Below are positions 1-3,320 of a stretch of DNA of 64,000 bases, piece after piece. The stretch covers positions 248,001-312,000 of the forward strand of contig JAIQEW010000011.1 in NCBI GenBank assembly GCA_020073605.1, in the 5' to 3' direction. This DNA is from Terriglobia bacterium. Lineage in GTDB: Bacteria; Acidobacteriota; Terriglobia; Acidiferrales; UBA7541. Positions within the stretch are counted from its first letter, which is position 1. Every line of letters starts with the position of its first letter. The notes beneath the pieces were generated by a model that made no database searches, was not told where the DNA came from, and worked only from the letters and a program-made list of their open reading frames with translations. Made by a program: the position numbers and the translations under genes.

Positions 1-903
1 AATGTATTGCGCCACCGTCGATTTGCCTTGTCCCGGCGCGCCTTCGAGAACGACCTTCGGAAAGCGGGATGCGGTACGACGGCGTAGCAGAAAGGCTGCC
101 GCCCCCACCGGTTCGTCTTCGCGTACTGCGGAATGGAATTGGAGGGCGTAGTTCTGCGCGCTATCTGCTTCTGCGTAGTCGAAATTATCGCTGAACTGAA
201 TCGGCGTCTGCGACGCTTCGCGAAAGTGTTTTGCAAATTCTCCATCCCGCGGTAAAAGCGGAACGTCAATGAATAGCTCGAGAAGTTTGTTCTGGAGCTC
301 GACTTGTTTAAAGCGCACCTCCTCGTCGACTTCATACTGTTGTCGAAGAAATGCCAAGATCGACGAAGTTCGGCGCTCGCGATGTTCACTCAGGCCCGAT
401 TCGACGATCGCTCTCAGTATGTCGGGACCTGACATTAGTTCTGGGTAGACCCATTTCAGCGACCACGTGATGTCTAGCCGTCTGTTGACGTCATCTCGCC
501 ACCAGCACATGGCTGGTACTTTGAGGTGCTCGCTGAGGATCTCATTTACTTTATCTATGCTTCCACTTTCGAGGTGCCCTGTACCGGGGACGTTTGTCAG
601 AAGGTAGTATCCGCGGGCGCCCTTTGGTATGAGCTTCGAGAGTTTTGGCGCCTCCTCTTTAACAATTCCCAGAAGCCACTTGTGGGGATCTGGTTCGGCA
701 AGCGGCTTGTGGAGAAACTTGACTTGATAGACTGAAAACGGCGCCGATTTCTTAGCACGCATGGCTCTAACAGCGTCCCGGCCACCATCAGCTTGTCCGA
801 TAGGAAAGCATTGCATGTCAGGGTGCTCCCTAGCGAGCAACGACTGACACAGCTGCTGGAATCGGTCCGGGCCAAGATTTTCTAGAGGATAGTCCACAGA
901 CAT
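1..903 (-). CDS. PD-(D/E)XK nuclease-like / NACHT-type (STAND) ATPase, N-terminal part
   Basis: This is the first 301 codons of a larger protein that runs off the left edge, so the C-terminal part is unseen. The start is ATG at 903, with an in-frame TAG two codons upstream. Residues about 8-63 look like a Mrr/PD-(D/E)XK nuclease fold: a helix with F15/L18, then GGRD (D43), then Q60-V61-K62 as the QxK motif. At residues 288-296 there is a clear Walker A motif (GAPGQGKST) preceded by a hydrophobic strand, as in NACHT and other STAND NTPases. This nuclease-NTPase architecture is known among bacterial antiphage NACHT/Avs-like proteins, where target sensing by the missing C-terminal repeats would activate the nuclease. 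Codon use is more A+T-rich than in the neighbours, suggesting acquisition. The NACHT label rests on Walker A and context only, because Walker B and the sensor lie outside the window. Confidence 0.75.
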   Translation of the reverse strand, partial: MSVDYPLENLGPDRFQQLCQSLLAREHPDMQCFPIGQADGGRDAVRAMRAKKSAPFSVYQVKFLHKPLAEPDPHKWLLGIVKEEAPKLSKLIPKGARGYYLLTNVPGTGHLESGSIDKVNEILSEHLKVPAMCWWRDDVNRRLDITWSLKWVYPELMSGPDILRAIVESGLSEHRERRTSSILAFLRQQYEVDEEVRFKQVELQNKLLELFIDVPLLPRDGEFAKHFREASQTPIQFSDNFDYAEADSAQNYALQFHSAVREDEPVGAAAFLLRRRTASRFPKVVLEGAPGQGKSTVAQYI

Positions 904-1206: not shown

Positions 1207-1283
1207 AAGAGAAGACGCCCTCCTTCCGCCGAGGGCGGCGGATGCACAATTCGCGCATGGGAGGCATGCGCCACTAGAAAGAT

Positions 1284-1309
1284 GCCGGGCTAAAGGACCC
1301 GGCGCTACG
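1284..1309. repeat. Dispersed palindromic repeat, family B copy 2
   Basis: Arms GCCGGG and CCCGGC enclose CTAAAGGA, followed by GCTACG. It is identical over 26 bases to the copy at 13265-13290, about 12 kb away. Confidence 0.8.
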
Positions 1310-1381
1310 TTGGAATCTTCAAGAAAGAGTCTAAGCAGGGCGCGGCGGGCGACCCTGGATTTCCTCCTCTGGCCCTTGCCC

Positions 1382-1933
1382 TTACTCGTCCACATCCTCG
1401 AGCGTGATCTCCTTGATAAATTTCAAGAAATCTCCCTCGCGCAGCTTCCGGCAAAGCTCGATCAATGTTCCCTGTTGCCGGTAGCTGAGGACGCGCATAT
1501 GCGCCTTCGCCACCTTCGCCTGATGCGGCACCACGCTCTCGACGAACTTCGCGCCCGCCGGCGTCAGGCTTACCATGCCGATTCGCCGTCCCTCCCTCCG
1601 TTTCCCTCGAAGAGCGATCGGTATGCGGCTTTCCCTGGTCGGCCGAAGCGGAAGCGTCACGATTTCCTGGCGCACGCATCCCGATTTCTCCAGGCTAAGG
1701 ATCGTGGCCGCCATATTCGCCCGCTCGCGCATGCGTCGCTCGGCGGCCTTCACGATGCTCATCGGACCTTCGCGGTGCAGCATCAAGAGCAGCCGGAATT
1801 CCTCGGTCGTGATGCCGAACGTTTCGAGCGGACCCCGCAGCTCCTTCCGGATCCAGTCCGCCGTGTCCACCAGATCGAGATAGGCCGCGAAAGCTCGCTG
1901 CGTCTTCTCTTTTTGCCTCGGCCGGTCGCTCAT
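1382..1933 (-). CDS. MarR-family transcriptional regulator
   Basis: A 183-residue protein with a central winged-helix region: helices around EEFRLLLMLHREGPMSI and RRMRERANMAATILSLEKSG are the typical MarR recognition part. A basic wing (RPTRESRIP...RGKRREGRR) and the LTPAGAKFVE motif that precedes the long dimerisation helix follow. I chose ATG 1933 (MSDRPRQ) over the upstream ATG at 1951 because the extra six residues look non-conserved. It probably acts as a dimeric repressor or sensor. The target is unknown; the MFS transporter upstream on the same strand, about 140 bases away, is the obvious candidate. The wing is longer than usual. Confidence 0.8.
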   Translation of the reverse strand: MSDRPRQKEKTQRAFAAYLDLVDTADWIRKELRGPLETFGITTEEFRLLLMLHREGPMSIVKAAERRMRERANMAATILSLEKSGCVRQEIVTLPLRPTRESRIPIALRGKRREGRRIGMVSLTPAGAKFVESVVPHQAKVAKAHMRVLSYRQQGTLIELCRKLREGDFLKFIKEITLEDVDE

Positions 1934-2072
1934 CCACAAAAGGCTACACAAAAGCTCGCCTTTTGGGGGTTTTCATCCCCGTAAAGACGGCTTATGGGAG
2001 CATGGACCATGCTGCCGTTGCAGCGTTGAAAAAGGCCTCGCCCGGGCGCTCGTTCTACTTTGTGATTTGGTT

Positions 2073-3320
2073 CTACTTTGTGACGTCGATGTCGAGCAGA
2101 TTGCGGTCCGGCAGAGTGAGCGCCCACCACAGCATGGCGCCGAACACGGGGACGATCCCTGCGAAGAGAAACGCGTTGGCGTAGTGCTTCATGTCGAACA
2201 TGTGTCCGAGGCTCGGCAGCACCGCTGCGACGACGGCGGACCACGAACCCGCGCCAATCCCCGCGACGAGGCCGGTCTGCTCCTTCGGATAGGCGAGCGC
2301 GCTGGTCCGCAGCGAGACGACCACGAACCCGGACGCGATGAACATCGCCCAGAACATCAGCCCCAGCACGACCGTGGAATTTCTGAATTCCGGCACGGCG
2401 ATCAGCGGCAGGCCGAGCACGGCATACGTCAGAAAGAGCCACGAGGGCCGCGGGTTGTTTGCCGCAAAACGGTCCGCGAACCAGCCCCAGAAGAAATAGC
2501 CGATCTCCCAGCCGAGCGGAGGAATCCAGAGGACGCGCCCGAGCTCGCCCTGCGTGAAGCCGAGCACCTGCGAAAGGTAGAGCGGCGCGAGATAGAGAAT
2601 CAGTCCGATGGGCAGCGCGCCCAGCGCGTACGCCGCGACCAAGCTCCAGAATCGCCGCTCGGCAGGATTCGGCAGCGTGATGCGCTGGGTCTGCCGGCTG
2701 GACACGACCGCCGAGAAATCGATCGTCGTGCGCCAGAGCAGCACCCACAGCAGCCCCGCCACGCCCGTGACGATGAAAGCCCGGCGCCATCCGTAGGCCA
2801 GCGCGATAGGCGTCACGATCAAGGGCGTGATGATCGCGCCGAGCGATCCGCCGCTATACGCGACGGCGATGCCGCGCGATTGCTGCCGCGGCGGCAGCCA
2901 ATCCATCGCGGTGCGCAGGCCGCCGGGAAACGTGGCGCCCTCGCCGAATCCCAGCACAGCGCGCGCCACGGCGAAGCCGAGAAATCCCGCGAGCACGGCG
3001 TGCGCGCCGCAGGCGATGGTCCACACGGTGACCGCCAGAGCCATCCCGCGGCGCAGCCCGACGCGGTCGAGGATCGCGCCCCACATCGGATTTCCGAGCA
3101 TGTACGCCACGCTGAACGCGCTCACGATCTGGCCGTATCTTTGGGCGTTGAGCTTCAGATCGGCAAGGATCATCGGCGAAAGCACGGCGAGGATTTGCCG
3201 GTCCATGTAGCTGAGCAGCGAACAGGCCAGCATCATCACGACCGGCCACCACGGCTTCCACGCGGCGCGCGGAGGCGCGGCTGGAAAGTGGCCCGGTGTT
3301 GTTTCGGTGGTCTGGGTCAT
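2073..3320 (-). CDS. Major facilitator superfamily transporter
   Basis: A 415-residue, roughly 12-helix inner-membrane protein. The N-terminal signature is like the anion:cation symporter/hexuronate branch of the MFS: LLSYMDRQILAVLSP in TM1, GAILDRVGLRRGMALAV in the loop 2-3 motif, and VLGFGEGATFPGGLRTAMDWLPPRQQSR near TM4. The second half contains WFADRFAANNPRPS, the repeat of the loop motif. Substrate cannot be told from sequence; this branch often carries sugar acids or other organic anions. It stands alone apart from the MarR gene downstream on the same strand, which may control it. Confidence 0.85.
   Translation of the reverse strand: MTQTTETTPGHFPAAPPRAAWKPWWPVVMMLACSLLSYMDRQILAVLSPMILADLKLNAQRYGQIVSAFSVAYMLGNPMWGAILDRVGLRRGMALAVTVWTIACGAHAVLAGFLGFAVARAVLGFGEGATFPGGLRTAMDWLPPRQQSRGIAVAYSGGSLGAIITPLIVTPIALAYGWRRAFIVTGVAGLLWVLLWRTTIDFSAVVSSRQTQRITLPNPAERRFWSLVAAYALGALPIGLILYLAPLYLSQVLGFTQGELGRVLWIPPLGWEIGYFFWGWFADRFAANNPRPSWLFLTYAVLGLPLIAVPEFRNSTVVLGLMFWAMFIASGFVVVSLRTSALAYPKEQTGLVAGIGAGSWSAVVAAVLPSLGHMFDMKHYANAFLFAGIVPVFGAMLWWALTLPDRNLLDIDVTK

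Follow-up and report, generated by a model that had tools for sequence, protein, structure and literature searches.

The window analysed here, a stretch of 64,000 nucleotides (G000:C8:248001-312000) within a 3.66-Mb genome, begins at its left edge with the first 301 codons of a minus-strand gene. The frame has its ATG at base 903 and is open to base 1. The initial annotation had read these codons as a protein cut off at the window edge, and leftward extension (L002:13097-16000, window positions -2903 to 0) indeed yields an intact, uninterrupted open reading frame of 1268 aa (L002:13097-16903, minus strand; G000:C8:245097-248903), in which GGRD ending in D43, Q60-V61-K62 and GAPGQGKST at residues 288-296 stand at the very residues named there. 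The encoded protein consists of a nuclease domain (residues 1-150), a helical linker, a NACHT module with winged helix (about 270-700) and an all-helical C-terminus (about 720-1268) (Table 1). A sigma-70-like promoter scan upstream of the gene returned no site and an RNA family search of the surrounding island returned none.

Table 1. Features of the nuclease-NACHT locus, its insertion site and two plasmid-borne relatives.
Feature	Location	Strand	Evidence or remark
Nuclease-NACHT gene, first 301 codons	window 1..903	-	ATG at 903, frame open to base 1
Mrr-like PD-(D/E)XK nuclease domain (predicted), residues 1-150	window 454..903	-	AlphaFold2 model, fold matches, Mrr_cat in homologues
Predicted catalytic Asp D43 (DGGRD)	window 775..777	-	99% conserved in 82 homologues
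Predicted catalytic Q60-V61-K62 (QxK)	window 718..726	-	Q60 and K62 each 99%
Helical linker between nuclease and NACHT, residues 151-283	window 55..453	-	model and alignment
Walker A GAPGQGKST, residues 288-296, start of NACHT module	window 16..42	-	alignment; Pfam NACHT in full protein
67-bp direct repeat, right copy	window 1282..1348	+	left copy L002:11747-11813, 99% identical
MarR-like regulator gene	window 1382..1951	-	right edge of low-GC insert; outside the system
MFS transporter gene	window 2073..3320	-	syntenic marker; where the insert is absent, adjoins groEL at about 200 bp
272-aa protein gene	L002:9568-10386		low GC, same insert; one apparent N-terminal transmembrane segment
245-aa apparent membrane protein gene	L002:10748-11485		low GC, same insert; missing from 19 congeners
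REP-associated tyrosine (Y1) transposase (RAYT) gene	L002:12164-12679		beside NACHT gene, amid inverted REP-like repeats
HNH-NACHT plasmid relatives	L007:4647-7322; L008:4662-8108		CBASS-like HNH domain

The gene is part of a low-GC insert of about 8 kb between groEL and the MFS transporter gene. Low GC (about 0.50-0.54) extends in two stretches from groEL (end at L002:9433) to the MarR-like gene (from L002:17382), parted by a transposase/repeat segment with a GC content of 0.58-0.62. The whole nuclease-NACHT gene has a GC content of 0.54 compared with 0.62 for the window genes, none of which falls below it in overall GC, and the A+T-richer codon use proposed at the outset as a sign of acquisition is real, with a GC3 of 0.57 over the 903 bases and 0.59 over the whole gene versus 0.75 +/- 0.06 for 43 other genes of the window. 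The junction of groEL and the MFS gene, compared across L002, L150, L151, L152 and L153, is a variable insertion spot beside groEL, as it measures 8.6 kb here (L002:9433-18073), about 200 bp in two congeners (L150, L153) and about 3.2 kb in two further congeners (G008, G018). Acquisition of the gene, read as a recent one, is supported by the low-GC insert, by the two congeners in which the site is empty and by the patchiness of its phyletic distribution (see below). The RAYT transposase gene and the NACHT gene are bracketed by the 67-bp repeat, which possesses only two full-length copies genome-wide, 5.5 kb apart, besides dispersed shorter REP-like pieces, and which has a putative link to the insertion. 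Among the other products of the insert, the 272-aa protein weakly matches the candidate defence model PDC-M43A of PADLOC (E 7e-6).

A Pfam search of the query gave no match to the N-terminal nuclease region; among 71 homologous N-termini, nine are matched by Mrr_cat (PF04471; best E 1e-4). An AlphaFold2 model covering residues 1-301 was computed from an input of 71 homologues; its block pLDDT is 86-98 across residues 1-150, and the elements follow each other as helix 11-26, strands 30-32, 44-47 and 56-62, helix 73-89, strand 96-103, helix 115-126 and strand 131-134. The predicted alpha-beta-beta-beta-alpha-beta core has the order of PD-(D/E)XK nucleases, with the fold spanning residues 11-150, D43 starting one predicted strand and QVK ending the next. 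Foldseek comparison with the PDB ranked FokI, PaqCI, EcoT38I, EcoO109I, Card1, Mus81 and XPF/Hef among the first entries; the leading matches are mostly nucleases with weak E-values (0.01 to 0.1), listed together with scattered unrelated entries. The N-terminus of the homologue L016 (residues 1-161) additionally matches the PADLOC model Aga_REase-TIR-PNTD1-PNTD2 (E 9e-6). The model thus points to a PD-(D/E)XK domain of the Mrr-like kind with a core fold carrying D and (E/Q)xK. The PD-(D/E)XK-like domain of the initial annotation is thereby located to a predicted fold whose D43 and K62 are 99% conserved, and the full-length protein contains this predicted nuclease fold rather than being an ATPase devoid of one, the outcome that had been named as contrary to the proposal.

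In an alignment of 82 full-length homologues with about 25-50% identity to the query, D43, Q60 and K62 are each kept in 99%, the P-loop PGQGK is present in 100%, and D400, D403 and E404 of the Walker B region DGLDE (residues 400-404, beyond the window) occur in all sequences; in the linker, F198 and D213 are invariant and Q200 is found in 99%. With such near-complete conservation at this level of identity, the motifs are not a chance occurrence. Mean column conservation is 0.44-0.71 over residues 1-750 and drops to 0.26-0.41 over the C-terminus, as is expected for a sensor, to recover at the very end (W1265 in 99% and F1266 in 89% of the 82 homologues).

The central part is a NACHT NTPase with Walker A (288-296) and Walker B (400-404) motifs, for which the full protein scores above the cut-off of Pfam NACHT PF05729 (30.2 versus 26.7 bits). 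The fold from the NACHT module to the C-terminus was modelled on L016, the homologue nearest to the query (50% identity), from residue 270 to its end (mean pLDDT 88.4, pTM 0.83). No meaningful match emerged from searches of PDB sequences, be it with the single protein or with profiles, and matches were obtained by fold comparison only. The best ones were NLRP7, NLRP9, NOD2, NLRC4 and NLRP3 (E 4e-6 to 7e-4). Next after the NLRs came a STAND-TPR protein and then Avs4 (E 9e-3), and the top 20 were structures of the NLR family or complexes containing an NLR. Since TM-scores over the whole length are low (about 0.25), it is most likely the NACHT and winged-helix part, and not the sensor, to which the match applies. 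The model is therefore indicative of an NLR-like fold of the NACHT module. The Walker B motif and C-terminal architecture, for which inspection of the full-length protein had been recommended, are found as DGLDE, an NLR-like winged helix and a long helical C-terminus, the last comprising about 550 aa (residues ~720-1268) that are all alpha-helical and without a Pfam match. The order of effector, central NACHT and C-terminal sensor, with the sensor role being the presumed one, is read from the models of window residues 1-301 and of L016 from residue 270 and from the effector exchange observed in the plasmid relatives L007 and L008.

These two plasmid-encoded relatives align with the query from about residue 174 on, while their N-terminus consists of an HNH_2 (Pfam) domain instead of PD-(D/E)XK. 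The HNH domain of L008 finds its best PADLOC match in an endonuclease 'Effector' model (E 4e-25), besides SAVED_HNH models, and represents a CBASS-type nuclease. That one nuclease has been swapped for another before the same NACHT module is strong evidence that the N-terminus is the effector. The same exchange bears on a Type IV-like restriction function, in which the Mrr-like domain itself would recognise and cut modified foreign DNA while NACHT would only regulate assembly. Such a role would be in line with the Mrr_cat-like nuclease and with the type II restriction enzymes among its predicted fold matches, and yet it is very improbable, as a domain for DNA recognition was not found and the replacement of the nuclease by HNH with retention of NACHT and part of the C-terminus suggests that specificity resides elsewhere than in the nuclease.

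Relatives of the protein are widespread. Searching genome contigs by degenerate pattern returned nothing when the single protein served as the query; with the alignment, 205 relatives in genome contigs were confirmed, of which the best 80 were retained. Full- and part-length relatives together number more than 200 and are spread over more than 10 phyla, with members in Acidobacteriota, Actinomycetota, Bacteroidota, Bacillota, Chloroflexota, Cyanobacteriota, Myxococcota, Pseudomonadota, Rhodothermota, Spirochaetota and Thermodesulfobacteriota and one more in a planctomycete as judged by its record title. In a quick tree the query pairs with L016, the one other acidobacterial sequence, among sequences of Chloroflexota, cyanobacteria and spirochaetes. 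Close to home the family is confined to its own genome, 1 of 61 when counted with 60 relatives and 1 of 396 sampled genomes of the phylum. Weak AAA matches in Pfam and the position of the insert next to groEL might bring to mind an AAA+ ATPase of housekeeping or regulatory function in which the nuclease-like fold is degenerate. Such a protein is difficult to reconcile with this absence, with 99% conservation of the catalytic residues and with the NLR-type fold match; this reading was rejected as extremely improbable. Other observations concern individual records. The Arenicellales chromosome OY282380.1 carries two paralogues of the family (L056, L059) about 14 kb apart, and in L025, L030, L062, L073 and L080 the homologues extend over two or three open frames, representing frameshifted copies or assembly errors. 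A tblastn search of phage records revealed no relative; the IMG/VR contigs L097 and L098 carry the family with homologue scores and ends identical to those in the Sphingomonas and Micromonospora contigs L065 and L084, and are thus probably prophage or misassigned host DNA.

The surroundings of the homologues provide a further line of evidence. A PADLOC scan (E <= 1e-10) of 197 proteins flanking homologues matched PARIS AriA, Gabija GajA, Septu PtuA, Old, IetA/IetS, AbiEii, RmrA and several candidate systems, compared with one match among 50 window genes as a control, which was not genome-matched. As some of the models matched near homologues (mad3, mad8, capP, RtcR) may be generic as well, the association with defence genes is supported rather than proven. 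In plasmid records, an AbiE pair, an Abi family gene and a Lit family gene are annotated beside relatives. Neighbours indicative of defence, which had been suggested as a check, are therefore present around the homologues, whereas a clear defence partner is missing from the neighbourhood in the own genome, as PADLOC recognised none in the own island, where the 272-aa neighbour is a weak candidate match only, and the neighbours in this island have no relatives beside homologues. A multi-gene system was rejected, since no partner gene is shared; the homologues adjoin integrases, and the sole neighbour family common to more than three loci, a tyrosine recombinase, is also the commonest one (6 loci).

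Plasmids contributed 42 more distant relatives, mostly actinobacterial. This frequency on actinobacterial plasmids and the vicinity of integrases, locations where competition between elements is expected, would also be compatible with a nuclease-NACHT switch directed at plasmids or other mobile DNA instead of phages, with a product of their conjugation or replication as the signal. That the best-studied PD-(D/E)XK-NACHT proteins respond to phage (PMC12169576) and that phage systems are among the defence-island neighbours makes this an improbable explanation, less so than restriction by the Mrr-like domain.

An antiphage role, on the other hand, is suggested by the architecture and by the places where relatives occur, and every testable feature of a NACHT STAND protein short of function fits the protein. 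With high probability, the gene was acquired horizontally and encodes, as a single-gene system, an antiphage STAND receptor of the bacterial, NLR-related NACHT kind, which would act by DNA degradation and abortive infection; a search of the literature found no activity or phage test for the family. The combination of nuclease and NACHT as such is already known, and bNACHT clades with PD-(D/E)XK effectors exist. A Mrr-NACHT fusion with the identical named domain combination (gi:68548712), compared here by domain names, was named in passing in 2007, its function not being studied (PMC1913061). Closest in architecture are bNACHT25 and bNACHT32 of clade 6, which likewise join an N-terminal PD-(D/E)XK nuclease to a central NACHT in one protein (PMC12169576), and the PD-(D/E)XK DNase effector that characterizes this clade is predicted at the N-terminus here. 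By description, clade 6 possesses an NCH1 C-terminal domain; the C-terminus here is a long helical array of ~550 aa, and no NCH-type family was among the Pfam matches at E <= 1 with a library that includes NCH3 and in which the inclusion of an NCH1 model is unconfirmed. The protein probably does not belong to clade 6, and the family may already be one of the existing bNACHT clades. Clade 14, whose members end in the short SNaCT domain and lack a discernible effector, was rejected in view of the clear predicted nuclease effector.

The initial annotation had assigned the domain order to NACHT/Avs-type defence proteins, a reading that is correct in its essentials. The NACHT part of this assignment is borne out by the Pfam score and the NLR-like fold, while membership in Avs was not demonstrated, with no PADLOC Avs model matching the query or the homologues L016, L005 and L019 at E <= 1 and Avs chains in the PDB giving no sequence match. 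Avs4 (AVAST type 4) resembles the protein as a long STAND NTPase with a helical-repeat sensor, as reflected by the structural match of the L016 model (E 9e-3), and its N-terminal nuclease is described as Mrr-like; in the fold search, however, Avs4 ranks below the animal NLRP, NOD2 and NLRC4 structures. The animal NLRs (NLRP7, NLRP9, NOD2, NLRC4 and NLRP3) share the switch architecture, a NACHT with helical and winged-helix subdomains. While their C-termini are leucine-rich repeats and their effectors adaptor domains, the protein described here has an alpha-helical array at the C-terminus and a nuclease as effector.

bNACHT25 and bNACHT32 degrade DNA upon MS2 infection, the D48A substitution abolishes their defence, the nuclease aspartate being needed, and the host protein DnaJ is required for sensing by bNACHT25 (PMC12169576). 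By analogy with these two proteins, oligomerisation and DNA degradation most likely occur here as well. In the 1268-aa protein, the resting state would be ADP-bound and autoinhibited, until a product of the phage, or a change that the phage induces, is sensed by the C-terminal array. The NACHT modules would then exchange their nucleotide and oligomerise, which would bring the N-terminal nucleases together. The clustered nucleases would degrade DNA and the phage would be stopped at the cost of the cell, so that the protein is most likely an abortive-infection effector. The C-terminus, with an A-x4-WF motif at its very end, is conserved between Acidobacteriota and phyla as remote as Cyanobacteria, Bacteroidota and Pseudomonadota. 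Tentatively, and with the opposite being the likelier case, the family might be a nuclease-NACHT system of its own, shared between phyla, in which the helical C-terminus is maintained over its whole length because what it senses is either a feature that very different phages have in common or a conserved host process, and not a fast-changing phage protein.

The locus adds a complete, well-conserved and widespread nuclease-NACHT family that was missed by the PADLOC 2023 library. Its intact catalytic residues, its single-gene layout and the natural exchange of HNH for PD-(D/E)XK make it a convenient subject, suited to asking what a bacterial NLR-type sensor recognises and how a NACHT switch drives unrelated nucleases.
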